Below are positions 118-15,262 of a DNA stretch of 23,396 nucleotides, piece after piece (the stretch's first letter is position 1; each line of letters starts with the position of its first letter). The notes under the pieces were generated by a model. It saw only the letters and a list, made by a program, of their open reading frames with translations. It had not been told where the DNA came from and made no database searches. The position numbers and the translations under genes are program-made. Source of the stretch: a virus. The stretch spans positions 1-23,396 of the IMG/VR virus record IMGVR_UViG_3300037584_003347; one strand, written 5' to 3'.

Positions 118-280
118 ATTTCTCCGTCGCGCATTTTGGACCACAAAAGAATATTAAGTTATACTTTTGATCCGGGTTAAATTTTTTGTCTAACCAGTAT
201 AGTAATCTACTAAACCAGTTACCACATTCACTGCATTTAAATTCTGGTCCTGGGCGCACGCTGCTTTTATCATACTCCAC
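98..280 (-). CDS. Small zinc-binding protein with an FCS/TRASH-like finger
   Basis: This is a roughly 60-residue protein with a CSEC pair near its N-terminus and an FCGPKC group near its C-terminus, about 26 residues apart. That spacing fits a treble-clef, FCS/TRASH-like zinc finger. Between them is an aromatic stretch (NWFSRLLYWL). I chose the GTG at 280 because a GAGGG ribosome binding site lies about five bases upstream and the overlap with the preceding PP-loop gene is then only 11 bases. ATG codons at 298 and 313 are alternatives that would add 6 or 11 residues. Such small zinc proteins usually bind nucleic acid or another protein. The tight overlap with the PP-loop gene suggests co-translation with it, but the function is unknown. 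Confidence 0.6.
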   Translation of the reverse strand: MEYDKSSVRPGPEFKCSECGNWFSRLLYWLDKKFNPDQKYNLIFFCGPKCATEKYERSNK

Positions 281-1406
281 AAAGTCCCTCGCATTCATCT
301 GCAAATTCTTCATCAAATGTTTCACCAAACAATGACGCTTGTTTTTTTGGTTCTAAGAAATTTATGTCTCCTAAAGGCTTAGCTGATTTATGTAAGTATA
401 ACTTTGCTTCTGAGTTTTTTAACCCATTTCTAATTAAATTGTCTACCTCTACAGCATCTGCAAAATCTTCTGGATAATTTTTTTGCATGTTTTTCCATTG
501 ATCATTGTGATGATAAGGACACCCAATACATGATGACTTACCCGGCATAGGATGTTTCTTTATGTCTTTATACCAATTAAGACAATCCATACGAGACATA
601 CCCATTTCTATTAATGGCCAACGTGATGTCAACCATGGCAATCTAGCGTTTTTCATACGCATAGCTTCATCTGTAGATATACCTATCCATTGTTCCACAA
701 TCATGTCTTTAGGCACTCTGTGTCTAGGTTTTACACCCAATAATTCTCTAATTTTCTTTTGTATAGGGATAACTTTATAATCATGTGTACACTGACGATA
801 AAGCATCCCCACACGTCCACCTTCACGTGCAGCAAACAACGGTGGGTTTGGCACACGTCCAGCAAACGACTTTTCCTCTTCTCTAGACCCTGGTATTGGG
901 TTCGCTGCTTTGATCAGATCTTCACGGATATTTCCTCTCTCTACAGTGATCAACGGACAAATCGTTATAGCTTTTCTTAAATATTCTACATGCTCATACA
1001 CAAATTTAGGCTCCCACCCAGTGTCAGCAAATATCATATAATCTGGTTTATGTTTTGTTAATCCTTCTTGTGCCATCAAAGCTAAACAAGACGATTGTAC
1101 GCCAGCTCCTAATGACAATATACGCATAGTAGGCTCACGTTGTTCACCTTTACCTTCTGTGCTATCATATTCTGCAGGCTTACCTGCTTTTGTTAAATTG
1201 GTAGTTTTAAAATATTTAGGCTCTACTGTAGCTGCAACTGCAGCCATATTATTAAGTCTTTTTTGATCAACTTTTGTAGACAATTGTTCAAGAACTTTTC
1301 TTCTTTCAAACTCCATTTGTTCTGGATTAATTGCAAAATTACTTTTGACATTACCAGCTCTGGCTTTGCCTTGGTCACGGTACCCGGGTTTTTTAGTCTC
1401 TGTCAT
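270..1406 (-). CDS. PAPS-reductase-like PP-loop protein (phage CysH-like family)
   Basis: This 378-residue protein has a PP-loop nucleotide-binding motif, SLGAGVQSS, at residues 98-106, followed by FADTGWEP at 126-133, the layout of the PAPS reductase/adenine nucleotide alpha hydrolase superfamily. Cysteines at 206 (QCTHDYK), 275, 293 and 296 (CIGC) could ligate an Fe-S cluster or zinc, and the protein ends in a CxxxC tail (C372, C376). Residues 241-247 (IGISTDE) are typical of the phage branch. The first 93 residues are a charged, low-complexity extension, and Met94 could be an alternative start. The chosen ATG at 1406 overlaps the glucosaminidase gene by 14 bases and has AGAGG just upstream. 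Members are often called phosphoadenosine phosphosulfate reductases. The true substrate in phages is uncertain, and a nucleic acid sulfuration or modification role is as plausible as sulfate assimilation. Confidence 0.8.
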   Translation of the reverse strand: MTETKKPGYRDQGKARAGNVKSNFAINPEQMEFERRKVLEQLSTKVDQKRLNNMAAVAATVEPKYFKTTNLTKAGKPAEYDSTEGKGEQREPTMRILSLGAGVQSSCLALMAQEGLTKHKPDYMIFADTGWEPKFVYEHVEYLRKAITICPLITVERGNIREDLIKAANPIPGSREEEKSFAGRVPNPPLFAAREGGRVGMLYRQCTHDYKVIPIQKKIRELLGVKPRHRVPKDMIVEQWIGISTDEAMRMKNARLPWLTSRWPLIEMGMSRMDCLNWYKDIKKHPMPGKSSCIGCPYHHNDQWKNMQKNYPEDFADAVEVDNLIRNGLKNSEAKLYLHKSAKPLGDINFLEPKKQASLFGETFDEEFADECEGLCGV

Positions 1407-1914
1407 AGGCCTCTAGTTCTCTAATTGTTCTGATGATTTTTTGCGTATAATATACATCTTCAGCATATATTGCAAGTGTCATAGCTAATTCTTCTAAGTC
1501 TATTTCATCGCTAAAATGCTGGGTTATTCGTTCGCTTCTAAACTTATAATAATGATGATTATGATTTAATAAATCAATATAATAAGAAATGGATTCGCAC
1601 TTTGTCTCAAAGATCCTAAGCCCCCACGTCGTGTTAGGATTATTAAGCGGCTTTAGTTGATTATCTGACGGGTCAAATGTGCGGATTCCAAGGAGGTTAT
1701 TTGCTTCTCGTGCAAACCTAGATTTACCCCAATTAGATTCATGCACTGCTTGTGCAATTATAAGATCTACTGGAACACGATCTGCTTCAACATGCATAGA
1801 ATTAAGGTGTAAAGCACATGCTCGCACTTGTTCTATGAATTCGTCATTATTTGTATAATCCATAATTGGATTAAAGCTTAAACAAACAAGAAGTGTTTTA
1901 CATATCCAACTCAT
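1393..1914 (-). CDS. Glucosaminidase (Bax/FlgJ-like) peptidoglycan hydrolase
   Basis: This 173-residue protein matches the mannosyl-glycoprotein endo-beta-N-acetylglucosaminidase family (Bax, FlgJ C-terminal domain). Residues 48-80 carry the family core: VPVDLIIAQAVHES with the likely catalytic Glu59, then NWGKSRFARE and NNLLGIR. A later YAEDVYY segment (150-156) matches the family's YATDPxY motif. The enzyme would cut glycan strands of the cell wall. The N-terminus (WICKTLLVCLSF) is mildly hydrophobic, too weak to call a signal peptide with confidence. The ATG at 1914 overlaps the stop of the endonuclease gene as ATGA, and an AAAGGAG ribosome binding site lies inside that gene's end, so translation is probably coupled. 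A wall hydrolase in the replication operon, separate from the lysozyme of the late operon, is notable. Confidence 0.82.
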   Translation of the reverse strand: MSWICKTLLVCLSFNPIMDYTNNDEFIEQVRACALHLNSMHVEADRVPVDLIIAQAVHESNWGKSRFAREANNLLGIRTFDPSDNQLKPLNNPNTTWGLRIFETKCESISYYIDLLNHNHHYYKFRSERITQHFSDEIDLEELAMTLAIYAEDVYYTQKIIRTIRELEAYDRD

Positions 1915-2324
1915 CCATATCTCCTTTTGTATTTTATTGCTCTTTTTAATTGTTCTATATTTTCATCGAACATACCATATGCAAGATTGTGACGTTGACA
2001 CAACATGTGTCTAGGTATAAATTTTTTTATATTGTGATTATGATCAATAACTAATTCTTTAAGATTACTCCTACCTTTCTTTCTTGAAGGTGCTTTTTCA
2101 TAGATCACATCTTTGCCACAAATAAAGCAAATTGGCTTTTGTTTTAACCACCAATCTGCCACATCTTTGCCATGCTCACATTTGATTTTTCTATATCTTA
2201 ATTTAATTCTACCTTCTTCTGTTGATCTAAGTTTGTTTTGATGATTTAACTTAGATCGTGACGCAGCAGCTTTTCCTTTCTTTGTATTAACATATCTTTC
2301 TTGCCTAGCTCTAGCATAGGTCAT
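1911..2324 (-). CDS. Endonuclease VII-like HNH resolvase
   Basis: This 137-residue protein resembles phage recombination endonuclease VII (T4 gp49 type), which resolves Holliday junctions and branched DNA before packaging. The N-terminal 60 residues are very basic. The zinc and catalytic region follows: C66 and C69 (CFIC), the nuclease motif LVIDHNH at 91-97, then MLCQRHNLAYGMFDE at 107-121. In the classical family the last pair of zinc ligands is CxxC. Here it reads C109-x2-H112, so one ligand appears to be His. The catalytic Asp-His and the following Asn113 are present. The start ATG overlaps the polymerase stop as ATGA, with GGGGTGA upstream. Position directly after the polymerase fits a role in DNA replication and repair. 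Confidence 0.85.
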   Translation of the reverse strand: MTYARARQERYVNTKKGKAAASRSKLNHQNKLRSTEEGRIKLRYRKIKCEHGKDVADWWLKQKPICFICGKDVIYEKAPSRKKGRSNLKELVIDHNHNIKKFIPRHMLCQRHNLAYGMFDENIEQLKRAIKYKRRYG

Positions 2325-4168
2325 TTATCACCCCAACTTTCTCCAAGATCTACGTCTACTTTTGAAGGTACTTGTAAATCTACACATGTTTCCATGACTT
2401 CTTTTATTTGATTAGCTTGTCTTTCGTCTTTAACAGAACAATCAAGCTCATCGTGAACTTGTATAAGAGGTATTACACCTAATTCATCATATACATTAAC
2501 CATTGCTTTCTTTGTTTGATCAGCAGCAGAACCCTGTATCAATCTATTTAAAGCTTTATATGTACCATATCTTTTAATGGCATCACCATATTCTACTTTA
2601 GCTTGATTCAAAGGTAATGGTTTGTGTACACCCCAGGACGTAGGTTCCCATAAATCAAATCTACACTTACGACCTAATAAAGTTCTAATTACGCCTTTAG
2701 AATTAGCACGATTCATAACAGCTTCAAGCATACCTTGCATAAAAGGAACTTTACCACGGAAGTCTTTTAACATCTCTTTAGCCTCTTGTGGCTCAAGATC
2801 TAACTCACGTGCAAGCTTATTATAACCCATGCCATACATAACACCCAGACCAATTGTTTTTGCTAATCTTCTATCCACTCCTGCCATGTCTGCTGTTTGT
2901 TGGTGAAAGTCTAAATCTTTCTTTTGATAAGCTTCTTTTACATCATGTGAACCTGGTTGGTCCACGAGGCACGCCCAATGTGTCAAGAGTCTTGGTTCTT
3001 GTTGCGAGTAGTCTGCTTTGAGCCAATACTCACCCATCTCAGGAATAAACAACTTTCTAACATCTTTTGCAAACTGGCCACGACTAGGCACTTGCTGTAA
3101 GTTAGGATGATTATAAGAAAAACGGCCAGACACAGTGCCACCAGTATCAGACCTAATTTGATTAATGTGTGCGTGTATTCTCCCATTCTCTGTATAATTC
3201 ATTAACCCTTGTAGAAACGTGCCTCTTAACTTATTTAATTCACGTGCCTGCATTATTAATCTTGGTAATTCATGAGGATGATCTGTCAAAAACATTTTTG
3301 TAAACGATGGTGAATCTGTTTTTTCTGTTCTTTCATAAGGTAAATTCATAGAATCAAACGCTTTTGCAATAGAAGCTGCGGCCCATATTTCTATGTCAAG
3401 TCCAGTTAAATCTTTAACTCTTTTCATTAACTTCTTTTCTTTGTTGTAGAATCTACTCTCCAATTTATCACATTTTTCAGCATCAAATCTAACACCACGT
3501 TGTGTCATTTTAAAAATAACATGAATTAATTTACATTCCACATCATACACTGTTGTAAGATTATCTTTTACAATTTCCCAAGATAGTTTTTCGTGTAACT
3601 TGTATGTAAGATCTGCATCAGCCTCAGCATACTCACCAACAAACATAGCCGGTAATTTATACATCTCTGATTTTGGATCTACACCAAATGCTTCTGCTGC
3701 TTCTCTTAGTTTTTGTTCGTTTTTAAACTCACCTAAATATTCATGCACTATACTATTAAGAGTATACGAATATCTATTCTCATCTATTAAAGCTGCTGCC
3801 ACCATTGTGTCATGCACTCTGCCTTTAACTTCTATATTCAACGCCCATAACCATCCTATATCATACTGCGCATTGTGAAATATTTTTTCTATTGATTCAT
3901 CTTCACAAATAGATTTTATATATTTTACAACTTTATCTTCATCCATGTTACCACCACCATCATGTGCAATGGGGTAGTAAGCTTTAAATGATGCAGTAGC
4001 CATAGCTATACCAATCACCTTACCTCTCTTAGTTGGCCACCCTGGGCCATGTTTAATTAATTCTGGATCACATGTTTCTAAATCAATCGCTACGCGTCCC
4101 TCTATACGAGGGAACTCCGTAGGAGCAACCCATTGTGATGTAACTGTCTTAAAAAGATCCTGTGTCAC
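2321..4168 (-). CDS. polA: Family A DNA polymerase with 3'-5' exonuclease domain
   Basis: This 615-residue, Klenow-like polymerase lacks the 5'-3' exonuclease domain of bacterial Pol I. The proofreading domain shows Exo I (D29-L-E31), Exo II (HNAQYD, 98-103) and Exo III (YAEADADLT, 180-188). The polymerase domain shows motif A (DYSQQEPR, 386-393, against the usual DYSQIELR), motif B (RRLAKTIGLGVMYG, 433-446) and motif C (VHDE, 571-574). In motif B the residue equivalent to E. coli Phe762 is Leu441, encoded by CTG at 2848-2846. Translation starts at a GTG with AGGAGAAATTA before it, overlapping the DUF6378-like gene by 20 bases. It is the replicative polymerase of the module, working with the primase, helicase and ssDNA-binding protein encoded upstream. 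No thioredoxin-binding loop of the T7 type is evident. Confidence 0.95.
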   Translation of the reverse strand: MTQDLFKTVTSQWVAPTEFPRIEGRVAIDLETCDPELIKHGPGWPTKRGKVIGIAMATASFKAYYPIAHDGGGNMDEDKVVKYIKSICEDESIEKIFHNAQYDIGWLWALNIEVKGRVHDTMVAAALIDENRYSYTLNSIVHEYLGEFKNEQKLREAAEAFGVDPKSEMYKLPAMFVGEYAEADADLTYKLHEKLSWEIVKDNLTTVYDVECKLIHVIFKMTQRGVRFDAEKCDKLESRFYNKEKKLMKRVKDLTGLDIEIWAAASIAKAFDSMNLPYERTEKTDSPSFTKMFLTDHPHELPRLIMQARELNKLRGTFLQGLMNYTENGRIHAHINQIRSDTGGTVSGRFSYNHPNLQQVPSRGQFAKDVRKLFIPEMGEYWLKADYSQQEPRLLTHWACLVDQPGSHDVKEAYQKKDLDFHQQTADMAGVDRRLAKTIGLGVMYGMGYNKLARELDLEPQEAKEMLKDFRGKVPFMQGMLEAVMNRANSKGVIRTLLGRKCRFDLWEPTSWGVHKPLPLNQAKVEYGDAIKRYGTYKALNRLIQGSAADQTKKAMVNVYDELGVIPLIQVHDELDCSVKDERQANQIKEVMETCVDLQVPSKVDVDLGESWGDK

Positions 4169-4481
4169 TAATTTCTCCTGCTATTGCTGCATAACCTGCC
4201 ATATCAACAAAGTTATCCATGTTAATTTTTTCACCTTGTGTATGTCTAGATATTTTTAACAATATCATCATGATGGCTACATCATCAGCTGTGATATTAG
4301 CCATTGGCCTTAATTTCTTATCAAGAAATATATTCCAAAACTCTGCTATCTCTGCATGATTATTAAATGCATCACCATGTGATTTGTTTCTATCATTAGA
4401 AACAAGGTCACTAGCCTTTGCTAGTATTTCTTCTTTTGTCATGCTAGTTTTTATTCTAGCAACTCCACTACTAAAACTCAT
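4149..4481 (-). CDS. DUF6378-like phage protein, possible nucleotide pyrophosphohydrolase relative
   Basis: I place the start at the ATG at 4481, giving 110 residues. It overlaps the helicase stop as ATGA and has GGGGGA upstream. A longer frame to 4565 exists, but its extra residues are a Cys/Arg-rich shadow of the helicase C-terminus. The protein carries the pattern of a widespread small phage family (DUF6378): ASDLVSNDRNKSHGDA near residue 20, IAEFWNIFLD, then a helix DVAIMMILLKISR and a C-terminal DNFVDMAGYAAIAGE. The helical build and the conserved acidic helix before GYAAIA recall MazG-like all-alpha pyrophosphohydrolases, which clean nucleotide pools, but this link is my inference. Its place between helicase and polymerase genes supports a role in DNA metabolism. 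Confidence 0.75.
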   Translation of the reverse strand: MSFSSGVARIKTSMTKEEILAKASDLVSNDRNKSHGDAFNNHAEIAEFWNIFLDKKLRPMANITADDVAIMMILLKISRHTQGEKINMDNFVDMAGYAAIAGEISDTGSF

Positions 4482-5989
4482 ATTATGAATCCCCCTTCTC
4501 TTTGTGGTTGTACTACATGTAGACTCTCTCTGGCACGTGTTGCTCCTACATAAAACACACGGCATTCGTCGTCCGAATCTTTTTCCATAGCTTCTTGTGA
4601 TTTTCTAGACAAGTCTGTAAGAAGCATTACATTATCTGCTTCACCACCTTTAGCTCCATGTATAGTGCTAATATTTATTTTCGGTGTTTTTGATATTGTC
4701 CCTCTTACTTCTATGGCTCTTAAATATTCTTTATCTCTGTTACCAACTTTATCAAACGCTACATCCCACGGTCTACCACCCATTAGTAATCCGTGATGCA
4801 TGACTAATTCTTCTAACTCGTATTGTTCTTTGTCAGCCATTTTAAGAGTCTTATGACCTCTTTCTATACCTATCTGACTTGACATGTATGAATATATGTC
4901 TTTTATATCTACAAGAGGTACAATTTCACCACTGTTTAATTTCTTCCAAGCTTCTACTGCATTTAAAAGTTTAGCTGATATAGGTAATTTATTGTTTCTT
5001 TTATACAACATACCTTGTAAACGTATGTCTCTTTCTATCTCGTCTAACATATAATTAGTTCTAGCCATAACTAACCAACTACCATCGTCACGTAAATTAA
5101 CACTTTCTGGATAAGTATGATATTGAACCGCACCTTCTCTGCTTGTTCCTTTCCATTGCTTATCTCTTCTAAACTTAACTCTACTGATTATTCTATTAGA
5201 TAAATTTTGAATAACAGAAGAACAGCGAAAAGACTGTTTTAGTGTTTCTACTTCACCTGGCAATTGAATAAAATGTTTAACATCAGCGCCTGCCCAGTTA
5301 TATATAGCTTGATCATCGTCTCCACTAATGTAAACCTTTCTTGCATTTTGTGTTATTTTATCTATCATTCGCCATTGTAATTTACATAAATCTTGTGCTT
5401 CATCTACAAACACTACTTCTAATTTTGGTATTGGACCAGAATCTAAATACAATTCAATCATGTCGGTAAAATCAAACACCTCTTTTTTCTTTTTAAATTC
5501 TTCTAATGATCTTTGTGCACGTAAGAGTGAATGCCAAGACATATCTTGTAAATTAGATTCATTGTAATGATGTTCTAAATCCATACATTTCATACGTGCT
5601 AAATTTATTTCATTAATTAAAATATTATCTGTTGTTACTACACCACCAGAATCTGCGCCATCAGCAACAGATCCTAAATCCATACCAAATGTTTGTGCAA
5701 ATTCTTTATAGTTATCACGCGACATTACCTCTGACTTTGTCAGCCCTAATTGATTGAAAGCAAATGAATGTAAAGTTCTAAAATATGGAAGGTGTTGCTC
5801 TTCTAAATTAAACTTCTTCATTGCCCGGTCACGAGCCTCGGTTGCCGCTTTCTTGGTAAATGCTAAAAAAGCTATGCGATCAGGTGGAGTACCTTTGGCT
5901 AATTCTTCTTCTACTAAGTTTAATAAGTTATGTGTTTTACCTGTGCCTGGAGGGCCAAGTATTATTTTAGTTTTAGAATGGTGCACCAT
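4478..5989 (-). CDS. UvrD/Rep-like superfamily 1 DNA helicase
   Basis: This 503-residue protein holds the full SF1A helicase motif set: Walker A GPPGTGKT near residue 12, motif Ia AFLAFTKKAATEA near 40, motif II VDEAQD near 195, motif III GDDDQAIYNWAGA near 223, motif IV SFR near 253, motif V STIHGAKGGEADNV near 441 and motif VI FYVGATRAR near 479. It would unwind duplex DNA 3'-5' using ATP. At 503 residues it is shorter than UvrD (about 720), so the 1B and 2B insertions must be reduced. AAGGAGG lies 3 bases before the ATG at 5989, and a GTG at 5986 with 6-base spacing is an equally good start. The gene overlaps the primase gene by 17 bases and has an ATGA junction with the next gene. With no DnaB-type helicase in view, it may be the replicative helicase. 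Confidence 0.93.
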   Translation of the reverse strand: MVHHSKTKIILGPPGTGKTHNLLNLVEEELAKGTPPDRIAFLAFTKKAATEARDRAMKKFNLEEQHLPYFRTLHSFAFNQLGLTKSEVMSRDNYKEFAQTFGMDLGSVADGADSGGVVTTDNILINEINLARMKCMDLEHHYNESNLQDMSWHSLLRAQRSLEEFKKKKEVFDFTDMIELYLDSGPIPKLEVVFVDEAQDLCKLQWRMIDKITQNARKVYISGDDDQAIYNWAGADVKHFIQLPGEVETLKQSFRCSSVIQNLSNRIISRVKFRRDKQWKGTSREGAVQYHTYPESVNLRDDGSWLVMARTNYMLDEIERDIRLQGMLYKRNNKLPISAKLLNAVEAWKKLNSGEIVPLVDIKDIYSYMSSQIGIERGHKTLKMADKEQYELEELVMHHGLLMGGRPWDVAFDKVGNRDKEYLRAIEVRGTISKTPKINISTIHGAKGGEADNVMLLTDLSRKSQEAMEKDSDDECRVFYVGATRARESLHVVQPQREGGFII

Positions 5990-7463
5990 CAACCTCCTTT
6001 ATATCGAATGCAGAATCTTGTTGTTGATATGCAGGCACACCCCACACTCTTACTGTTCTACCTTTTAAATTATATTTCTCACTCTTACCTTTTAGATGTC
6101 TTAACGCTTGTACAAGCTGACCTGTATTAAAATATGTAAACTTGTTGCGTGTAAGATAATCCTGTAGATCTTTTAACCTAAACCATGTGATACCATCTTC
6201 GGTCCATGGTTTACGTAATAATAACTCATCACGATTTAGAGCCTGGGCACGATCAGTACAAAACTCCTGGAGGTGAGCCTCAAACTGACCGGCCAATGAC
6301 CCATCATCAGAAACAGGAATAGTATTAAGATTGACCATAAGTCTCTCTATAATTTCCTGCCACACTGACTGTTTTACAAGAGCAGGCATATGATTCAAAC
6401 TATTCATACATTTCTTTTGAAATTTAGTTTGTATTTGCAGCTCTTCTGTTTGTAATTCCATTCTAGAGTCACCAACATCCAAAAACCATACTGGTGGATC
6501 TGTTTCTAATTTGGTAAGTGCACTAAACTCTAGTGATGATCCATTACCACCTATGCCGTGTTTTCTACCACTGCATACTTTAGCATTGCAGTAAGAATTT
6601 ATTGGTGGTTCTTTACATCTATAACTATATTCTTTCTTCTCTAATTGTTTTTGCACTGTCACAACTTCTGATGCTGACAATGGCGGCGTCATATAATCTT
6701 GGTTATATTTTTCTAATAATGTTTTCCAATTATCTGGATCAAACTTTCGTAAATACACACCTATGTTAAACAAACCATTATTACGTGTACCTTCTGGAAA
6801 TCCTTGACTACACAATTGTTGTAAACAAGGTGGACCATCCTTTATAACTTCATTAGATACTTGAATTGCAACTTTGTCTATTTCTTCTACAACGTATTTA
6901 TCGTATAAGGTGTAGAACTCTGGCAATGTAGCTGCGGTTCCATCATCTTTATAGGCGTATCTCGTTGTACTTTTGGAATTATAATATGGAAGATTTAGGA
7001 AATTACCTAGATCTCCTTTTTCTATTAGTATGGTTGATTGCTTGGGGAATACTTCTACAGCGGAATATCCGAGACCAGATGCAACCTCTCGTAATTTCTC
7101 TCGTACTAATCTGGCGGATACTGGGTTTTTAAGAAATAAAAATATATGCATGCCTCCACTTTTGGATCTGCATGGCACCAGTGGCAACTGTAAATTTCTA
7201 ATACTATTTATTATTTTTTTATAATCAATTGGATATGTATCAATATCAATACATCCCCATCGGACTGTGTTATCAGCCATAATAGGAATGATTCCTAAAG
7301 AAGGACCATTTCCATTAAGATGCTCTGTCCACAAATCATCTCTAACTTCTTGTTTTACAATGTAAGACTTACCTTCTTGCTTACCGTCAGCACGTTTCCC
7401 TTGGGATTGGTGCTGACCATAAGCCACGTCTAAGCCTTCAAATATAGATTTGAATCTTTCCAC
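5973..7463 (-). CDS. Archaeo-eukaryotic-type (TOTE-like) primase
   Basis: This 496-residue protein has an N-terminal AEP-superfamily primase core. It shows the metal-binding DxD in WGCIDIDTY (D73, D75), SKSGGMHIF at 100-108 carrying the conserved His106, and EVFPKQ followed by GNFLNLPYY (137-161). This layout matches the TOTE-type primase branch common in phages. A middle region, PPCLQQLC then GTRNNGLFNIGVYL (211-237), and a Cys cluster (C283, C292, C297, in YRCKEPPINSYC and VCSGRKHGIG) suggest a metal-binding C-terminal module as in PriCT-type primases. It would make primers for the family A polymerase. The C-terminus is acidic and ends DGAPF, like an SSB tail. Translation begins at a GTG preceded by GGAGGTTTA. 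The gene is 28 bases after the SSB candidate and overlaps the helicase gene. Confidence 0.88.
   Translation of the reverse strand: MERFKSIFEGLDVAYGQHQSQGKRADGKQEGKSYIVKQEVRDDLWTEHLNGNGPSLGIIPIMADNTVRWGCIDIDTYPIDYKKIINSIRNLQLPLVPCRSKSGGMHIFLFLKNPVSARLVREKLREVASGLGYSAVEVFPKQSTILIEKGDLGNFLNLPYYNSKSTTRYAYKDDGTAATLPEFYTLYDKYVVEEIDKVAIQVSNEVIKDGPPCLQQLCSQGFPEGTRNNGLFNIGVYLRKFDPDNWKTLLEKYNQDYMTPPLSASEVVTVQKQLEKKEYSYRCKEPPINSYCNAKVCSGRKHGIGGNGSSLEFSALTKLETDPPVWFLDVGDSRMELQTEELQIQTKFQKKCMNSLNHMPALVKQSVWQEIIERLMVNLNTIPVSDDGSLAGQFEAHLQEFCTDRAQALNRDELLLRKPWTEDGITWFRLKDLQDYLTRNKFTYFNTGQLVQALRHLKGKSEKYNLKGRTVRVWGVPAYQQQDSAFDIKEVDGAPF
5993..5998 (-). promoter_or_regulatory. Strong Shine-Dalgarno site of the SF1 helicase gene
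   Basis: On the minus strand the bases read AGGAGG, a near-perfect anti-16S match located within the 3' end of the primase gene. Spacing is 3 bases to the ATG at 5989 and 6 bases to the GTG at 5986. The start therefore cannot be fixed to one codon, but a start further upstream is unlikely. Confidence 0.6.
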
Positions 7464-7491: not shown

Positions 7492-8301
7492 CTAAAACGG
7501 TACGTCTTCGTTGCTTTCTGTATTGTTAGATTGTGGCGCCTCTTTTATAGGCTCACCCTCGACAGTAGGTTTAGCTTCGACATCTCCTCTTGATGCTGCG
7601 GTTGAAAATGATTTTGCTTCATTATAAATACCAGCGTCCTCAACTTGACCTGCTTTCTCAACTTGATACCCAAACCAACTACCACGATCATTAGACTCAC
7701 TAACTGTAGTAAGTTTATAAATCATAGCATATGTTGGTGGAGTAAAACTTCCCGATGGACCACTAACTTTTTGAGTTAACATTAAACTGTTCCAACGTCT
7801 GCTCTTTTTTAATTGAGTAGATGTCATGCTAATAACAGCTTGAGACCACACGCCACCTTTGTCTTGTACTAAGACATAGTGATATGCAGTTGTAGCAATG
7901 TAATTACCGTTAGGTAATGTGTCCTTAAACGTCATTTGATCACGTTTAGTTTTACTTAAGACACCACTATCAGCGTGATGAGATTCTACGAATCCTCCAC
8001 CTTGCTCACGTGGTTTCCATTCTACGTATCGTAGTTGGTAAAGAACAGGAATCACATTTAGTGAGTCACTGACTTCTTGTGAGACAGTGTTATAAAACTG
8101 TCCAACTTTAGCCCCTTCAACATATTCCGCTTTTGATGGATTAAGTTGTGGACTATTAGATTGTAGTATGTTGATGTAAGGGATTGCGATATCTCTTGAC
8201 ATGTCAAGATTACCAAAACCGCTTGCATCTTTTGAATCACTAGCAAGAACTGCTAGATCTAATTTTGCCGCTTTAGTAGCGACTGCCTGTGCTTTTGCCA
8301 T
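7492..8301 (-). CDS. Probable phage single-stranded DNA-binding protein with SSB-like acidic tail
   Basis: This 269-residue protein starts MAKAQAV with AGGAG eight bases upstream. The middle (about residues 39-220) is beta-rich and includes IPYINILQSNSPQL, YVEWKPREQGGG, YHYVLV and STQLKKSRRWNSLM. The last 40 residues are a disordered acidic linker ending ESNEDVPF, which closely resembles the DDIPF tail by which bacterial SSB recruits partner proteins. T7 gp2.5 and T4 gp32 also have acidic C-terminal tails. The tail, together with its position directly before the primase and helicase genes, makes ssDNA binding the best guess. I cannot confirm an OB fold from the sequence alone. An alternative is another replication-associated scaffolding protein. 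Confidence 0.65.
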   Translation of the reverse strand: MAKAQAVATKAAKLDLAVLASDSKDASGFGNLDMSRDIAIPYINILQSNSPQLNPSKAEYVEGAKVGQFYNTVSQEVSDSLNVIPVLYQLRYVEWKPREQGGGFVESHHADSGVLSKTKRDQMTFKDTLPNGNYIATTAYHYVLVQDKGGVWSQAVISMTSTQLKKSRRWNSLMLTQKVSGPSGSFTPPTYAMIYKLTTVSESNDRGSWFGYQVEKAGQVEDAGIYNEAKSFSTAASRGDVEAKPTVEGEPIKEAPQSNNTESNEDVPF

Positions 8302-8315
8302 GGCCTTTTCTCCTA

Positions 8316-8879
8316 TTATTCTTTTATCGTTGTTTTTTGTCCTACGAAAGCCCCTAACAAATCCATAGGTAATTCCTTACCTGCTTCATGCTGCTCTCGT
8401 ATGAATGCGCGAAGGGTGGAAGGTTCGACCCATTCACGTTGCATTGATTGATAACCTTTCTCGGACAAAGTATCTATCAACGACTTAGCTTTCTCATCTT
8501 CATTCCTTCCAAAGCTACAAGAAACTTGGTTCTTTATTAAATCACCAAATCCATTGTCTCTTAGCCAACTAAAAGCTGCTTCTTTCTTAGCTTCTTTGAT
8601 TGAAGCACCATAATAGTTGGAAACTTTTAAGTGTCTACCATCTGCTAATTTTAATTCAGACAAACCTACTTCTGCAAATAAGTTAGGTAGAACATTTTCT
8701 GCTAAATGTTTTTTATAATCTTTTTTCTTTTTAAGTTGCTCTTCTAAATTAGCAATCTCTTGATCAGTATCTGCTACATCATTTGCAACAGCACCTATTT
8801 TACCCATGTTGTCCTGGGCCGTGGCCCCTGAATCTTGCTGCATTTGGGTAAGTAAATCTTTTGGATCTAAACTTGTCAT
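8316..8879 (-). CDS. Conserved phage protein of replication module, coiled-coil N-terminal half
   Basis: This 187-residue protein has a Gln/Asp-rich N-terminus, a predicted coiled coil at about residues 38-62 (DQEIANLEEQLKKKKDYKK), then a compact domain. That domain includes LPNLFAEVGLSELKLADG, AAFSWLRDNGFGDLIKNQV, a SCSFGRNEDEKA segment and, near the end, PSTLRAFIREQHEAG and PMDLLGAFVGQK. I recognise this arrangement as a common, uncharacterised phage family found beside ssDNA-binding and primase genes, but I know no proven function. The start ATG follows AGAGGTTAAT and lies one base after the preceding gene. The gap to the SSB candidate is 14 bases. A DNA-binding or replisome-accessory role is an inference from context only. 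Confidence 0.7.
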   Translation of the reverse strand: MTSLDPKDLLTQMQQDSGATAQDNMGKIGAVANDVADTDQEIANLEEQLKKKKDYKKHLAENVLPNLFAEVGLSELKLADGRHLKVSNYYGASIKEAKKEAAFSWLRDNGFGDLIKNQVSCSFGRNEDEKAKSLIDTLSEKGYQSMQREWVEPSTLRAFIREQHEAGKELPMDLLGAFVGQKTTIKE

Positions 8880-9197: not shown

Positions 9198-9227
9198 TTG
9201 ATTCTCATATAGATCATGTTATATATA
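9198..9227 (+). promoter_or_regulatory. Sigma70-like promoter for the SNF2 helicase, overlapping the leftward promoter
   Basis: On the plus strand TTGATT (9198-9203) is followed by TATATA at 9220 (16-base spacing) or at 9222 (18-base spacing). Transcription would start near 9233, just upstream of the ATG at 9249. The element occupies almost the same bases as the leftward promoter, so the two should compete for RNA polymerase. Confidence 0.45.
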
Positions 9228-9234
9228 AAGTCAA
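9206..9234 (-). promoter_or_regulatory. Sigma70-like promoter driving the leftward replication operon
   Basis: On the minus strand TTGACT (9234-9229) is followed after exactly 17 bases by TATATG (9211-9206), a good fit to bacterial -35 and -10 elements. Transcription would begin near 9199, leaving a leader of about 13 bases before the ATG at 9186. All genes from there to the left edge run in the same direction with no gap over 28 bases, so this could be the main promoter for the whole module. Confidence 0.55.
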
Positions 9235-9248
9235 CATTAGAAATAAAA

Positions 9249-10685
9249 ATGTACAAATTTAAAACTGAGCCTTATGAGCATCAAAAAGATGCGCTAAAAA
9301 AATGCTGGAATAAAGAAGCATTTGCTATCTTTGCAGAGATGGGTACAGGTAAAACTAAAATTGCATTAGACAATGCTTGCATATTATATAACAAAGGTAA
9401 GATTGACAGAGCATTAATTATTGCACCAAAAGGCACATACATGAATTGGGTAGATCAAGAAATACCTACACACATGCCTGATTACATAGAAAAAAATGTA
9501 GTAGCATGGAAACAATCAACAAGTGCAGAATACAAACAACAATTAAAAAACATAAAAGATTTAAATGATTTTAGATTTAAAATAATGGTTATGAATGTAG
9601 AAGCTTTGTCAACAAAAAAAGGTGTAGAATTTGCTAAAATATTTTTAATTGGTAAATCTATGATGATAATAGATGAAAGCACTACAATAAAAAATCCACA
9701 AGCTAAAAGAACTAAAAATATATTAGGGCTCGGTAAAGAAGCAAAGTATAGAAGAATACTTACAGGATCACCAGTGACACAATCCCCTATGGATCTGTGG
9801 TCACAGATGGATTTTCTTGATCCAGAAATATTAGGGCAACAAAGTTTTTATGCATTTAGAACTAGGTATGCAGTGGTTATCACAGCTAACGCAGCTGGTG
9901 GCACACATAAATATCAAAAAGTAATTAAATTTAAAAACTTAGCTCAGTTAGGACAACTTGTATCGCCACATTCTTACCGTATTCTTAAAAAAGATTGCCT
10001 TGATTTACCTGAAAAAACATTTGTTAAACGTGAAATAGAGTTAACTGATGAACAAATGACAGCGTACCAGGAAATGAAAACTAACGCCATGACTATACTA
10101 AAAGGCGAATCACTAACAGCCGTTAACGTGCTTACACAACTAATGCGGTTACATCAAATAACATGTGGACATATGAAAACGGATAGTGGTGAAACATTAA
10201 ATCTTAAAAACAATCGTGTAGATGAATTGATGCAAGTATTATCAGAGACTACAGGTAAAGCAATTATATGGGCAAATTATATTCACGATATATTAAATAT
10301 AGAAGCAGCTATAAAAAAAGAATATGGACCTACTTCATATTGCACATATTATGGTGCAACTAAGGCAGAGGACAGACAACGTTGTATATATGATTTTCAA
10401 AATAAAAAAAATGATTGTCGTTTTTTTATAGGTAACACACAAACAGGTGGTTATGGCATTACATTAACAGCAGCTAGTACAGTAATATATTATTCTAATA
10501 ATTATGATTTAGAAAAAAGAATACAATCAGAAGATCGTGCACACCGTATAGGACAAGTTAATCCTGTATTATATATTGATATGGTAGCAAAGAAAACTGT
10601 AGATGAAAAAATAATAAAAGCTCTTAAAAATAAAGTAAATATTGCTAAAGAAATTAGTGGAGAAGAATTATCCGAGTGGATTTAA
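9249..10685 (+). CDS. SNF2-family DNA-dependent ATPase/helicase
   Basis: This is the only plus-strand gene. From the ATG at 9249 it encodes 478 residues. Both RecA-like lobes are present: motif I AEMGTGKT near residue 29, motif II IIDEST near 140, motif III LTGSP near 171, then in lobe two GYGITLTAAS near 401 and motif VI RAHRIGQ near 430. SNF2 enzymes translocate on duplex DNA and remodel bound proteins. In phages they are thought to aid replication, repair or defence evasion. An upstream ATG at 9216 adds 11 residues but sits inside the putative promoter, and neither start has a good ribosome binding site. The stop codon overlaps that of the converging exonuclease gene in the palindrome TTAA. 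Confidence 0.9.
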   Translation: MYKFKTEPYEHQKDALKKCWNKEAFAIFAEMGTGKTKIALDNACILYNKGKIDRALIIAPKGTYMNWVDQEIPTHMPDYIEKNVVAWKQSTSAEYKQQLKNIKDLNDFRFKIMVMNVEALSTKKGVEFAKIFLIGKSMMIIDESTTIKNPQAKRTKNILGLGKEAKYRRILTGSPVTQSPMDLWSQMDFLDPEILGQQSFYAFRTRYAVVITANAAGGTHKYQKVIKFKNLAQLGQLVSPHSYRILKKDCLDLPEKTFVKREIELTDEQMTAYQEMKTNAMTILKGESLTAVNVLTQLMRLHQITCGHMKTDSGETLNLKNNRVDELMQVLSETTGKAIIWANYIHDILNIEAAIKKEYGPTSYCTYYGATKAEDRQRCIYDFQNKKNDCRFFIGNTQTGGYGITLTAASTVIYYSNNYDLEKRIQSEDRAHRIGQVNPVLYIDMVAKKTVDEKIIKALKNKVNIAKEISGEELSEWI

Positions 10686-11350
10686 ATTATGCTTTCATTG
10701 TAAGCATCTAGTTTTTTCATAAATGCGTTAGTTGCACGTACAAATTTTTCACCAGTCAATTCAAATCTTTGAAATGTTAAATCACGTGAACACATAAGAA
10801 CTACACCCTGGTCTATTTCTGTATCAAATATAGAATTGTGGGCCGCGGCGTACGCTGCAAGCTGCATTAAATAATCCTGCACCCATTCACGTTTCTTTGG
10901 TCTATTTGTTTGTTTAAAATCCATAATAGCTGGTCTCCCTTTGTACACACCAATCATGTCTGCAGTTCCTGCGTACTTACCAGGATTATATAAATGTACT
11001 TCTGATCCCCATATCTCTGTTATATCTTTAAATGATTCATCAATAATTTTTTGTGCCATTTTTTCTGCTTGTACACCTATTTCTGTAAGATCTTTGTATT
11101 TATCTCCGTTCACAAAACGTTCTATATATAGGTGGAGCGCGGTGCCAATCTGACCTGCACTCTTAATTATTTCCTCAGCTTTTTTTTCGCCTACTTTTGC
11201 ACGCCATTGTTTTAAAAATGTTTTATCTTTTGTTTTAGAAAGTATAGTTGTGACAGATGGTAATGCTTCACCATCGGGTGTAAGATATAATCTTCCATCC
11301 CCTTCTTTGCGTTTTAATTCTGCGTAATTATATTTCTTAATTAATTGCAC
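10682..11350 (-). CDS. PD-(D/E)XK exonuclease (MGME1/Cas4/lambda-exonuclease superfamily)
   Basis: This 222-residue protein shows the nuclease core in order: GTALHLYIERFV with His73, SEVHLYNP with Glu117, YAGTADMIG with Asp131, the D-x-K motif MDFKQT (Asp144, Lys146), and QDYLMQLAAYAAA with the helical Gln163 and Tyr167. Phage relatives degrade host DNA and process ends for recombination, and this could supply the 5'-3' exonuclease missing from the polymerase. It starts at a GTG with a poor ribosome binding site, 6 bases after the lysozyme stop. It is the last gene of the late operon, converging with SNF2. Its position away from the replication operon suggests late expression, perhaps for DNA maturation. 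It might also be transcribed separately. Confidence 0.85.
   Translation of the reverse strand: MQLIKKYNYAELKRKEGDGRLYLTPDGEALPSVTTILSKTKDKTFLKQWRAKVGEKKAEEIIKSAGQIGTALHLYIERFVNGDKYKDLTEIGVQAEKMAQKIIDESFKDITEIWGSEVHLYNPGKYAGTADMIGVYKGRPAIMDFKQTNRPKKREWVQDYLMQLAAYAAAHNSIFDTEIDQGVVLMCSRDLTFQRFELTGEKFVRATNAFMKKLDAYNESII
10689..10717 (+). terminator. Weak intrinsic terminator candidate after the SNF2 gene
   Basis: Four bases beyond the SNF2 stop, ATGCTT and AAGCAT form a 6-bp stem around a 7-base loop (10689-10707). Four bases later there is a run of six T. The stem is short and AT-rich, so this is only a candidate. It lies inside the 3' end of the opposing exonuclease gene. Confidence 0.4.
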
Positions 11351-11356
11351 TATGGC

Positions 11357-11797
11357 TTATACCATACACTCCGACATATGCCTAGCCATTTCTTGAGCTC
11401 TGTTGGGTGTCTGTTTTGCCCAACGTGAGTCAAGCATTTGAACAGACGCTTCAGCGTAATCTGGTGGATCTTGCTGAAGAGCCTGCCACATTTTCCTGAA
11501 CTTGGAAACTCCTGTCCCCCCAAGCTGGAAAATCATTTCGATGATTATAATTTTTGCATCATCACTTATTGTTAAACCTTTACACATATCATCTGCTTGA
11601 TCAATTGCAGATTGTAAATCTTTTTCTAATATACCCATTAAGAAATCTTCATCATACTCTTTGCCATCTTCCCAAAAGTCTTCTACACATAGGTGGCCAA
11701 CGCCCACGGTTCTTTTGTTTAAGGTATCGAGGTACACTTTATTTCTGTACCCTTCGTGTTTTTTTACTGATTCTAAAAGTTTATCCATGTCAATCAT
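11357..11797 (-). CDS. T4-type lysozyme (glycoside hydrolase family 24), endolysin
   Basis: This 146-residue protein has the T4 lysozyme catalytic triad with identical spacing: Glu15 (KKHEGYRNK), Asp24 (VYLDT) and Thr30 (RTVGVGHL). The C-terminal region DSRWAKQTPNRAQEMARHM matches the substrate-side helix of T4 lysozyme. It would cleave the MurNAc-GlcNAc bond to lyse the host. There is no signal peptide or SAR helix, so it needs a holin or another route across the inner membrane. The one-helix membrane protein encoded immediately upstream is a candidate. The ATG lies one base after that gene's stop, with only a GGA-type ribosome binding site, so translation may be coupled. Confidence 0.93.
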   Translation of the reverse strand: MIDMDKLLESVKKHEGYRNKVYLDTLNKRTVGVGHLCVEDFWEDGKEYDEDFLMGILEKDLQSAIDQADDMCKGLTISDDAKIIIIEMIFQLGGTGVSKFRKMWQALQQDPPDYAEASVQMLDSRWAKQTPNRAQEMARHMSECMV

Positions 11798-11798
11798 A

Positions 11799-12002
11799 TT
11801 AATTATCCAATTTTTTATTTATGTTTTTTACTTCGTTTTCTATGACAGCTATTCTAGCTTCCATTTTTGTAAACAGAATAAGTGCTTCTTCTATTCTATC
11901 TATGTCACGTTCCATTGCATTGATACGCTGTGATGTCATACCCCATGTAGCACCTAATGCTATAAAAATTCCTATGATCCATACTGCGTCTCTTATACTC
12001 AT
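11799..12002 (-). CDS. Small membrane protein beside lysozyme, candidate holin or spanin-like protein
   Basis: This 67-residue protein has one transmembrane segment at residues 7-22 (VWIIGIFIALGATWGM), followed by a continuous charged coiled coil to the C-terminus (ERDIDRIEEALILF, then EARIAVIENEVKNINKK). It is encoded directly before lysozyme, and its start overlaps the stop of the 1086-residue gene as TAATG. One membrane helix plus a coiled coil is compatible with an inner-membrane spanin subunit, an XhlA-like lysis accessory protein or a small holin. The sequence does not decide between them. No second, lipoprotein-type spanin gene is embedded in it that I can see. Confidence 0.65.
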   Translation of the reverse strand: MSIRDAVWIIGIFIALGATWGMTSQRINAMERDIDRIEEALILFTKMEARIAVIENEVKNINKKLDN

Positions 12003-15000
12003 TAACTTACCAAAGATATTATTCCGCCTCTTGCTGCCATACGTGGTGCCACTCTATTAGCGAGTGCCTGGTCCAAGTTTCCTTCATACAAGGAAGCTGC
12101 AGCTGCAGGGTTCATGTTAGGGTTTTGTAGTATAGAAGAACCAATACTTGTTACTTCATCTGCAAAGTAATTTGAGTCTGGTTGTGGAGGACTTTGTATT
12201 CTATCTAATATGTTCATTGCAGGTGATGTACCTGGTGTACCCATTGTATCTTCTACTATTCCTTTACCAGTTTCTAAAATTTGTTTACCAGCTTCACCAA
12301 ATGTTTCTAATGCACTTTTTGCTGGTGCCATACTTTGACCAACTTGTTCTCTGTATCGTTGTCCTTTTTCAATCTCTGCTAATTCACGATCAAACTCTTG
12401 CCATTCTTCAGGACGTAATCTTACAAGACGAACAAAATTAGCAAGTCTAACTTGCTCTGGTAATGTATCATCTAATATGTTTCTGTATGCACGAAGAGAA
12501 GGTGGGCTTGTTATAATGCCACCCATGTATCGTACACCGTATGCTAATGCTGCTGGTATTAACCAACCACTTCCAAAAGCTGCAAGTGCACCAGCTCCTG
12601 CTGTTCTTGTCTGTATTCCTAATGCTGATGTAGGTAATGCTGAAGCAATACCTGAACGTATACCACCCATTACTGCACGACGTGCCATGAATGTACTTAT
12701 TTCTGGTATACCATTTGCTGCTGCCGCAGTCATTAGTGTAGCAAAGTCTTCTAAATCTTTTAAGTTAGGTAATTGAGCTGCTTGTTTACCAACTAAACCT
12801 GCAGGTGCATCGTATTTTACTGCCTTTAATCCTTCGTTAAAATTAACGTTGTCAAATTCTTTTACTATTCCTGTTTGTCCATCACGTACTACTATTTTAG
12901 ATACTTGTGGTCCTGGTAATGCTTTTTCAAATAATGTTTTAAGTGGGTTGCCTTTACCTAAACCAAGTGCACGTCTAAATATTTCTCCATCAAATAATTC
13001 TGCACCATCTCTTTGTACAATAGAATTGTTAAATACTTTGTTAAGATAAATACCTAATCCTTCATAGTATGCTTTATCACCAACAATGTTTTTCATTGTC
13101 GCTAAATTTGTTGCAGCATTGGCTGGATCTTTTTTAGCTATATCAATAACTGTTTCAAATATATTTGTTGCTTGACGATCTGGATCAACGTTAATAGCCA
13201 TACCAAATCTTTCTACAGGACCAGCTACAGCTTTACCTGCTTTTGTTGTAAACATCATCATGCCGTTGCTTACAAACTTTTCATAATCACGCCATAATTT
13301 TTCTACTTCAGGTATACCTGACTTTGATAAGTTACCAATGTCTGCTTCCCATGCTTTATATATATTTAAAATATCTGCTTGACTCTCTCCATCTGCATTC
13401 TTTAAAAATTTATTATATAGTTTATCCATTTGATCACGAAGACCATAGTATTGCTCTATTGTTCTAGCACCTGCAATGCCAGGATTTATAATTTGAGTTT
13501 TTAAAAAATCAATAAAAGGTTCTGGAACTGCTTTACTAATTGCAGCTGTGCCTTCATCTGTAGGAGCAATTTGTCTTTGTGCTAAAGCTCTTTGATATAT
13601 TCTTTTTGCTTCATTAACTAATGTAGAATCATCTACAACAGCGCCGTATTTTCTAGCTGACTCTAATAACAATTGTTGTTTTTCTGCAGCAGCATCTCTA
13701 AATCCTCTTGCAGCAGCACCACCTAATCCTGATATTTTAGCACCGTGTTCACTAACATTTAATATGGGTGCAAAAGTTAATTTTTGTATTATGCTGCCAC
13801 CAAGATCCATGTAAGCATTCATTTGATCTGCTTTGTTTTTATATATTCTTGTACCTATAACTGGCGCACGTCCTAATAATTTTGAGATACCTGCTAACAT
13901 AGGAGAACCAACATCAGATCGTTGTACGTTTGTACCAATCATTTTTTCTGTTTGCGGTAATAAATCACCTACTTGTTTTAAAGGCGTTTTTAATTCAGAA
14001 GGACTTAAAAAATTAAAGACAGGGCTTCTCATTAATCTTGTCATTAGATTTCCAATTAAAGGAATATTTAATTGTATGTTTTGTGATCTACCACCAACAG
14101 ATGTTTCTATAAACTCTTTTGTTAACGGATCTTCTTGTAGCATAGTAGAAAATTTACCAGATTGATATAATCTTTGTTCGGCATCTAATATTTCTTGACC
14201 TGCAGGAACTCTAGATCCTGCTCTTGGTTTAAACATGCCAAATACATTACCACCTATAAATCTTTTTGTAGCATAGTAAGCAGGTCTTGCTCCAAAGAAT
14301 ACACTGGATATCGCACCATCAATTGCTGCATCTTTCAATGCACCTTTTATTCTTGTTGCTTGATCAGGACGATTAATACCTTCCGGACCAAATGTTAATC
14401 TGTCTGGTATTACAGCAGACATTGTTTCTAATATTTGATTATCACTATTCTTTAAAAACTTTTTTGCTGTGCCGGCTTTGTTCATTATATCTAATTGAAC
14501 TTCATAACCATAGTCAGCTATGCCTACGCCTGCAGCACCACCGACCACTGCGCCTAATGCTTTTGCCCACCAAGGTCCTGGGACCTTGCCACCACGTGCC
14601 ATGCCAGCCATAAATCTTTTACCAATACCTTTTGTTCCATATCTAAATGAATCTCCAAAAGCATCAAGAATTACTGGTCCAGCTTTATATCCTTTTAAAG
14701 CACCAACTGTTCCCACTACCATTTCTTGTCCAGCTTCTAATACAGGATAAGGACTAGGAGTAGAAGTATACAAACCAAACTCATCTTCATTAAGTAATGT
14801 ACTAGGCGTTATTGTTGTAAAATCTTTTTGTGATAAACCCATAGATCTAATGTATCCTTGTATGTCATTATTAAGTTCAGCCACTTGTTCTGGTTCCATA
14901 TTAGGATATTTTTCTTTTGCTCTTGCTATAATGTTAACTACATTGTCACGTACTGTATCTCTTTTTTCTCTATATGTTTTTAAATTTTGTAATTCTAAAG

Positions 15001-15262
15001 CTCTTGCATCAAGTTCTTTTTGTGATGCGACAAAAGGATTATCTTTACCAAAAGGTTGTCCAGGCAATAAAGCGTTTCCAAGTATTTGAAATGGAGCTGA
15101 TGCAGCTTCTGCAATAGGTTCCATAGTTTTTCTATTCTTCGCTATTATCTCTTCTGCTTTTGTTTGTGGTACACCACCTTCTGTTTTACTTACAAATGTT
15201 TTATCTTTTGCATCTAACTTTGATGCTGCTTTTTCAAATTGTTTTGTTGTTACATCTACCAT
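12002..15262 (-). CDS. Very large structural protein, candidate internal virion/DNA ejection protein
   Basis: This 1086-residue protein is the largest in the window. The N-terminus is polar and helical. A glycine-zipper hydrophobic segment lies at about residues 231-250 (KALGAVVGGAAGVGIAD), a second Gly/Ala-rich hydrophobic stretch at about 888-916, and a mostly helical middle contains several charged coiled-coil-like regions. The C-terminus ends AARGGIISLVS, a tail I associate with marine phage proteins. Two potential membrane segments in a huge helical protein, encoded between tail and lysis genes, fit an ejection protein that forms a channel in the host envelope, as the T7 gp14-gp15-gp16 proteins do. 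No lytic transglycosylase motif is visible. Junctions on both sides are TAATG. A tail tape measure is the main alternative. Confidence 0.65.
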   Translation of the reverse strand: MVDVTTKQFEKAASKLDAKDKTFVSKTEGGVPQTKAEEIIAKNRKTMEPIAEAASAPFQILGNALLPGQPFGKDNPFVASQKELDARALELQNLKTYREKRDTVRDNVVNIIARAKEKYPNMEPEQVAELNNDIQGYIRSMGLSQKDFTTITPSTLLNEDEFGLYTSTPSPYPVLEAGQEMVVGTVGALKGYKAGPVILDAFGDSFRYGTKGIGKRFMAGMARGGKVPGPWWAKALGAVVGGAAGVGIADYGYEVQLDIMNKAGTAKKFLKNSDNQILETMSAVIPDRLTFGPEGINRPDQATRIKGALKDAAIDGAISSVFFGARPAYYATKRFIGGNVFGMFKPRAGSRVPAGQEILDAEQRLYQSGKFSTMLQEDPLTKEFIETSVGGRSQNIQLNIPLIGNLMTRLMRSPVFNFLSPSELKTPLKQVGDLLPQTEKMIGTNVQRSDVGSPMLAGISKLLGRAPVIGTRIYKNKADQMNAYMDLGGSIIQKLTFAPILNVSEHGAKISGLGGAAARGFRDAAAEKQQLLLESARKYGAVVDDSTLVNEAKRIYQRALAQRQIAPTDEGTAAISKAVPEPFIDFLKTQIINPGIAGARTIEQYYGLRDQMDKLYNKFLKNADGESQADILNIYKAWEADIGNLSKSGIPEVEKLWRDYEKFVSNGMMMFTTKAGKAVAGPVERFGMAINVDPDRQATNIFETVIDIAKKDPANAATNLATMKNIVGDKAYYEGLGIYLNKVFNNSIVQRDGAELFDGEIFRRALGLGKGNPLKTLFEKALPGPQVSKIVVRDGQTGIVKEFDNVNFNEGLKAVKYDAPAGLVGKQAAQLPNLKDLEDFATLMTAAAANGIPEISTFMARRAVMGGIRSGIASALPTSALGIQTRTAGAGALAAFGSGWLIPAALAYGVRYMGGIITSPPSLRAYRNILDDTLPEQVRLANFVRLVRLRPEEWQEFDRELAEIEKGQRYREQVGQSMAPAKSALETFGEAGKQILETGKGIVEDTMGTPGTSPAMNILDRIQSPPQPDSNYFADEVTSIGSSILQNPNMNPAAAASLYEGNLDQALANRVAPRMAARGGIISLVS

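Follow-up and report, generated by a model that had tools for sequence, protein, structure and literature searches.

The window analyzed here, a 23,396-base virus fragment from IMG/VR, encodes a family A DNA polymerase (PolA) with leucine at the position equivalent to E. coli 762 and T7 526, and comparison of PolA sequences indicates that this Leu762 travels, with few exceptions, with a proline at position 711, beside the steric-gate residue Glu710; we put this forward as an association only. The new part of the finding is the pairing with motif A Pro711; Leu762 itself is an already known type. The explanation that we favor for the whole, and consider probable, is that this is the replicative PolA of an HTVC023P-type marine phage, in which Leu762 would reflect a type of replisome and not lysogeny, and Pro711 would act as a compensating residue.

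The polymerase and its gene neighborhood

The features of the polymerase and its surroundings are given below in window coordinates, those of the two motifs being computed from the ORF start at 4168; G004 is a related 61,655-base record.

1911..2324, minus strand: endonuclease VII-like HNH gene (PF02945, 8.7e-7), sharing 4 bases with the end of polA
2321..4168, minus strand: polA, family A DNA polymerase with 3'-5' exonuclease domain; ORF with GTG start, 615 aa (PF00476, 2.2e-66; PF01612, 2.2e-16)
2831..2872, minus strand: motif B RRLAKTIGLGVMYG, residues 433-446
2846..2848, minus strand: CTG codon of Leu441, in motif B
2990..3013, minus strand: motif A DYSQQEPR, residues 386-393
4478..5992, minus strand: UvrD-like SF1 helicase, 504 aa (PF00580, 2.9e-29; 86% identical in G004)
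5973..7463, minus strand: archaeo-eukaryotic type (AEP) primase, 496 aa (PF22548, 9.7e-14; 96% identical in G004)
7492..8301, minus strand: Pam3 gp34-like protein, "ATP-binding protein" in DSL-LC04 (PF23977, 2.8e-70)
8316..8879, minus strand: Pam3 gp33-like protein, "putative DNA ends protecting protein" in DSL-LC04 (PF23984, 5.7e-32)
9216..10685, plus strand: SNF2-like SF2 helicase/translocase, 489 aa (PF00176, 6.8e-27; 88% identical in G004)
10682..11350, minus strand: PD-(D/E)XK (RecB-like) nuclease (PF12705, 2.2e-5)

The PF00476 match covers PolA residues 231-614. The first-pass annotation had assigned Leu441 to the 762-equivalent position and had called motif A deviant, and both observations hold. 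A phmmer search against PDB chains pairs L441 with residue 438 of Klenow chain 8oo6_A (604 residues), which is the Phe of RRSAKAINFGLIYG and corresponds to E. coli 762; in a MAFFT alignment with T7 polymerase L441 lies opposite the Tyr of RDNAKTFIYGFLYG; and in an AlphaFold2 model of the protein (mean pLDDT 91.1) residue 441 falls within helix 433-445, the motif B helix. Neither the Klenow nor the T7 alignment puts a Phe or Tyr of the window PolA at 762, the arrangement that would contradict the assignment. Residues 12-615 of the model align with the Bst, Taq, M. smegmatis and Klenow structures at Z of ~32-35 (best in the PDB, 35.1). For motif A, Gln390 corresponds to 709, Glu391 to the steric gate 710, which is thus retained, and Pro392 to 711; the model has a motif A strand at 381-387 and a helix from 390, which would place Pro392 in the first helical turn, adjoining Glu391. 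Of the two features, the deviant motif A proved to carry more information. The catalytic residues of family A motifs A, B and C are in place (D386, E391, R433, K437, Y445 and H572-D573-E574, invariant in set A8), as are the proofreading residues D29, E31, D103, Y180 and D184.

Leu441 is not a chance event or a sequencing slip, since Leu is present in each of the 82 PolAs that form the window's cluster at 70% identity, written with four codons (CTA 27, TTA 24, CTG 23, CTT 8). In the wider lineage, here called lineage A, Leu762 is present in 288/288 PolAs with all six codons (TTA 75, CTT 75, CTG 54, CTA 42, CTC 22, TTG 20) and Pro711 in 288/288 with all four, in row counts that can hold one contig twice. 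Because Leu is constant although several codons are used, and 192 of the 288 lie one base from Phe, Leu762 is fixed in lineage A through purifying selection on the amino acid. Glu710, Lys758 and Tyr766 are retained throughout the lineage (the equivalent of Tyr445 in 288/288), and the five proofreading residues listed above are intact in 286 of the 288, the other two being gapped.

The polA gene sits in a non-ring replisome made up of the UvrD helicase, the AEP-type primase, the SNF2 translocase and the RecB-like nuclease. G004 carries the window's replication genes in the same order at 83-96% identity, and its other half matches HTVC023P in the terminase large subunit (TerL, 57%), GroES (55%) and capsid (72%). 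Among named phages, the closest PolAs come from DSL-LC04 (51%), 023Pt_psg01 (50%), HTVC023P (50%) and HTVC027P (44%). Membership of the HTVC023P type is defined by PolA similarity of at least 45% to cultured members (PMC9599517), a bound within which the window PolA falls at 50% identity to HTVC023P; of the core genes of the type, the helicase and DNA polymerase are in the window, and the terminase, capsid and GroES only in the near relative G004. Because of this PolA kinship, and because G004 joins the window's replication genes with HTVC023P TerL, GroES and capsid, we file the window, on gene similarity, as a fragment of an HTVC023P-type phage. The HNH gene beside polA may be a recent free-standing insertion, since it has no tblastn match in the four related stretches searched: G004, HTVC023P (1-26853), HTVC027P (1-50000) and the DSL-LC04 stretch.

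Several further features of the window and its relatives were recorded. A PAPS-reductase-like (phosphoadenosine phosphosulfate reductase) gene lies at 270-1406 (minus strand; phrog_424, 6.8e-46; 82% identical in G004), and there are two different lysis-type enzymes, an endolysin-like one near polA at 1393-1914 (minus strand) and a phage lysozyme at 11357-11797 (minus strand). Against the record L654 there is a mosaic break at 12002-17097 (minus strand), where identity falls to 24-27% for two large proteins of 1086 and 611 aa; it is 56-59% for the virion proteins, and the replication genes are 83-96% identical to G004. Relatives are also found in MAGs and SAGs labeled as taxa other than SAR11. 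Maricaulis MAG IN14 (G107) holds nine PolA matches, most likely from a number of phage contigs that were binned together, which cautions against host calls by co-binning.

Leu762 and Pro711 among family A polymerases

The PolA sample was drawn from 22 named phage records (plus P23-45 and six later ones), seven viral contig scans and one genome scan, giving 642 aligned rows (the 22 named PolAs in twice) that form 188 clusters at 70% identity, one of them gapped at 762; rows were dropped where no PolA was found (L129, L152) or where the ORF was shorter than 450 aa (L121, L412, L125, L127, L423, L472, L153). Pro711 is present in 69/72 Leu762 clusters and in none of the 78 Phe762 or 37 Tyr762 clusters. 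Of the clusters counted, those of lineage B and two from lineage C (out of four) were recruited with a scan pattern that restricted residue 711 to L, P or Y. When clusters recruited only by motif A patterns are omitted, the resulting 113-cluster subset has Pro711 in 52/55 Leu762 and 0/57 Phe/Tyr762 clusters, and column 711 has the highest mutual information with Leu762 of any column (0.885 of 0.9995 bits). Among 6345 column-residue pairs scored over four Leu lineages, Pro711 ranks first after Leu762 itself (0.94, the next 0.75; 0.92 vs 0.70 in a 187-row version). A later set of 25 PolAs comprises 18 mycobacteriophage-like Leu762 rows, all with Pro711, and PA-SR01 (Leu762) and six Phe762 rows, all without it. 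The P23-45 polymerase has Phe762 with Leu711, and in a cellular control of 299 genomes from one bacterial phylum DYSQIEP was found in 0/299 and DYSQIE[L/F] in 262/299.

How far this pattern reflects repeated events was assessed on an IQ-TREE tree of 77 rows from which the motif A columns and column 762 had been removed, an unrooted tree with long branches on which gains and losses are indistinguishable. Leu762 needs six changes on it, five of them on starred branches, and constraining all Leu762 rows to a single clade lowers the log-likelihood by 444 units (p-AU 9e-40), so that such a clade is rejected. Over five independent contrasts, Pro711 changes the same way as Leu762 in 3.8, the opposite way in 0.0 and shows no difference in 1.2 (averages); with no more than four or five independent Leu762 lineages in the sample, p = 0.125 is the lowest value that the sign test can reach. 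These few independent events leave some room for a reading in which the pairing is shared ancestry plus chance, without functional coupling, and that reading draws further support from the many other columns that also separate the clades and from the four kinds of Leu762 enzyme that do without Pro711 (Enterococcus phage 47, Salmonella phage PMBT28, Vibrio phage phiVC8 and Pseudanabaena phage PA-SR01). We nevertheless regard it as the less probable account, at somewhat under one chance in three, given the top rank of Pro711 over four lineages, its complete absence beside Phe/Tyr762 (0/115 clusters and 0/6 further Phe rows), its position adjoining Glu710 within the same active site, and its occurrence together with an ordinary Ile709 in lineages B and D.

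Gln709, the other unusual residue of the window's motif A, accompanies Leu762 in lineage A and part of lineage C. As a general partner of Leu762 it was rejected: lineages B and D have Ile709, and Gln709 is found in 8 Phe762 clusters. Its independent contrasts run 1.0 the same way, 0.6 the other way and 3.4 with no difference, and we infer that it is a lineage-specific extra.

A second site of interest lies in a D-x-H motif before motif B, whose His (His422 in the window) we take to be residue 734. Tyr at this site occurs in 41/620 rows, all of them Leu762, and also in each of the 18 mycobacteriophage-like rows. The conserved His is replaced by Tyr, instead of the Pro711 change or in addition to it, in lineages B, C and D; lineage A retains His. 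When six lineages are counted equally, phiVC8/PMBT28 and PA-SR01 included, Tyr734 scores 0.667 vs 0.625 for Pro711. Two clades are described here in their own right. Lineage B (L477, L482, L488, L499, L523 and their clade) is a further clade that combines Leu762 with Pro711, and in it residue 709 is the ordinary Ile and the 734-equivalent is Tyr; mycobacteriophage PDRPxv and its relatives (L304 and L636-L653) are Leu762 in 19/19, with motif A DW[SA]QIEPV and DLY replacing DxH.

A literature search, with most subscription journals outside its reach, returned no paper coupling 711 or a motif A proline with 762. Motif A and 709 go unmentioned in the main texts of PMC13228545 and PMC9069017, and the accessible portions of PMC4731470, PMC7708058 and PMC9629493 make no statement on 711.

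Leu762 and phage lifestyle

The first-pass annotation had pointed to a published link of Leu762 to temperate or slow life cycles, and correctly so: the accessible text of Nasko 2018 (PMC6302109) and of Keown 2026 (PMC13228545) credits the Leu762-temperate link to Schmidt 2014. In that proposal Leu762 is a mark of temperate phages, a slow, accurate polymerase being suited to lysogeny. A tyrosine integrase (PF00589 over its cut-off) is indeed present in 7/55 Leu762 records, namely 5/11 of lineage B, L474 and L235, and lineage B may be a really temperate Leu762 group. By residue 762, however, the integrase is most frequent with Tyr (8/14, against 7/55 for Leu and 7/58 for Phe), in records that were chosen rather than sampled at random and that include fragments, where absence of an integrase is not proof of virulence. 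Lineage A has none in 36 records (32 environmental ones of at least 30 kb and 4 named, many of them fragments), and the window, itself a 23,396-base fragment, was found to contain neither an integrase, in agreement with the first-pass annotation, nor a serine recombinase. Among other Leu762 records, PF00589 is matched in 0/2 for YuA and MW2, 1/1 for the YuA-like L235, 1/2 for lineage C and 0/3 for PDRPxv, phiVC8 and PMBT28. Serine recombinases (PF00239) are found in 0/55 Leu762 records, lineage A's 36 included, and in 2 of the 27 non-Leu762 records searched for them; both are Phe762 actinophages, Expelliarmus and Erik.

Scanning 84,980 species genomes with an alignment of seven Leu762 sequences yielded 66 loci, and all 39 loci of at least 40% identity are on contigs of 3,001 to 62,140 bases, none within a long chromosome, so that no inserted prophage was found among these 39; two 37% loci (L123, L124) are on contigs of 111,818 and 81,373 bases. 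Cultured phages also speak against the proposal. HTVC027P, whose PolA is Leu762, is described as obligately lytic (PMC12753301), whereas HTVC019P, which shares its host species, has Tyr762 and an integrase; for this reason the proposed rule runs backwards among SAR11 phages. YuA (Leu762) is reported to form no stable lysogens (PMC11946847), and twelve phages of Bradyrhizobium elkanii that are described as Leu762 are virulent isolates (PMC12656738). Genes of YuA-type phages are annotated as integrase and repressor, annotations judged mistaken by later work, in which the YuA "integrase" is taken for a primase-helicase (PMC11946847); such annotations may have fed the original Leu762-temperate correlation. 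In the YuA record (L085; gp25, gp26) gp26 is labeled "putative integrase", and in that of phiVC8 (L310) a gene at 2781-3764 is annotated "Integrase"; neither record has a PF00589 match. We conclude that Leu762 as a marker of lysogeny is not supported for lineage A phages, and a general temperate meaning of the residue appears very improbable.

The prediction of a temperate or slow cycle thus divides. Its temperate half is not supported by the lineage A records and the SAR11 phages, and a modestly slow cycle is compatible with the data, the latent period being ~18 h for HTVC027P vs 15 h for the temperate HTVC022P, of the HTVC019P type (PMC12753301). This latent period also favors a different account, in which virulent phages would have taken up Leu762 to suit hosts that grow slowly, where speed is not limiting and a slow or accurate enzyme is kept. 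The authors of the Bradyrhizobium phage study propose slow host growth as the reason (PMC12656738), no ribonucleotide reductase (RNR) is reported for HTVC027P in the accessible text of PMC12753301, and none is among the assigned ORFs of the window (20 proteins scanned in this 23-kb fragment). However, YuA and its relatives, phages of Pseudomonas aeruginosa with an RNR gene, have Leu762 as well, as does Enterococcus phage 47, and Tyr762 SAR11 phages share the same slow host species; we judge adaptation to slow hosts to be unlikely, at about one chance in four.

Proposed active site and known counterparts

The reading that we prefer, Leu762 as a replisome type with Pro711 as its compensation, can be put in terms of the active site. 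Glu710 is the steric gate, and the ring at 762 positions the sugar (PMC13228545); changes of Ile709 are reported to give mutator enzymes (PMC7708058). Normally an aromatic ring at 762 packs against the sugar of the dNTP that enters, and Leu762 enzymes lack this ring. Pro711, which the predicted structure places in the first turn of the helix that follows motif A, could stiffen the gate and hold Glu710 in place, and with the gate so held sugar selection and catalysis would survive without the 762 ring. The cost of losing the ring is known from T7, where Y526L lost 97% of activity and left the phage unable to complete its cycle, and where fidelity could not be measured (PMC13228545, a 2026 preprint). 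That study holds that natural Leu762 enzymes need compensating changes and that finding them is a key direction; from the alignments, Pro711 may be a candidate for such a change. Native Leu762 enzymes extended primers in 5/8 cases, with strand displacement in 2 of those 5 (PMC9069017). The slower, higher-fidelity synthesis that the first-pass annotation attributed to Leu762 is not borne out here, its basis being the point mutants Taq F667L and T7 Y526L and not native Leu762 enzymes.

A broader proposition, to which we give even odds, is that Leu762 polymerases have a rebuilt active site that several lineages reached separately, the ring becoming dispensable only once the steric-gate strand or the phosphate site had been re-formed, mostly by Pro711 and elsewhere also by Tyr734. 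If this is true, motif A changes should rescue T7 Y526L, at least in vitro, and residue 762 should report polymerase architecture rather than lysogeny. The point matters for viral metagenomics, where residue 762 serves for lifestyle guesses: Leu762 is reported as the commonest PolA type in two virome sets (934/2045 and 624/1215; PMC6302109), and contigs with Leu762 have been taken for temperate phages and for a sign of abundant lysogeny in Chesapeake Bay (PMC6302109, PMC9069017). If Leu762 instead marks one of the ocean's most abundant virulent phage groups, those lysogeny estimates need revision. Pro711, adjacent to the residue by which dNTPs are told from rNTPs, is a concrete and cheap candidate worth a bench test.

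Several known systems can be set beside the window. The T7 Y526L and Taq F667L mutants (PMC13228545 and citations therein) carry the same substitution at the same site as Leu441, but in a Tyr or Phe background without Pro711. The DpoZ polymerase of phiVC8 (PDB 7pbk; PMC8599892) is a solved structure with Leu at the 762-equivalent (L455 in the authors' numbering), and the window PolA model aligns with it at Z 33; DpoZ differs in belonging to a 2-aminoadenine system, in its motif A, MASFEVR, without Pro711, and in having Phe (F459) at the Tyr766-equivalent, where the window keeps Tyr445. The Group II virioplankton PolAs of Nasko 2018 (PMC6302109) combine Leu762 with adjoining UvrD-like and SNF2-like helicases, without RNR, and the window resembles them, by description, in Leu762 and both helicases; the authors infer a temperate lifestyle for the group, which the lineage A data do not support. 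The HTVC023P-type pelagiphages (HTVC023P, HTVC027P and the 023Pt genomes; PMC9599517) share Leu762 and DYSQQEPR with the window, with PolAs 50% (HTVC023P) and 44% (HTVC027P) identical, but their primase and UvrD are only 29-32% identical to those of the window. Phage DSL-LC04 (OR003939), a freshwater phage, is closer in these two proteins (43-50% identical) and has the same genes around polA, i.e. primase, UvrD, PolA, SNF2 (HepA) and PD-(D/E)XK; its PolA, 51% identical, has Leu762 like that of the window, with DFSSQEPR as motif A, and polA is not followed there by a match to the window's HNH gene.
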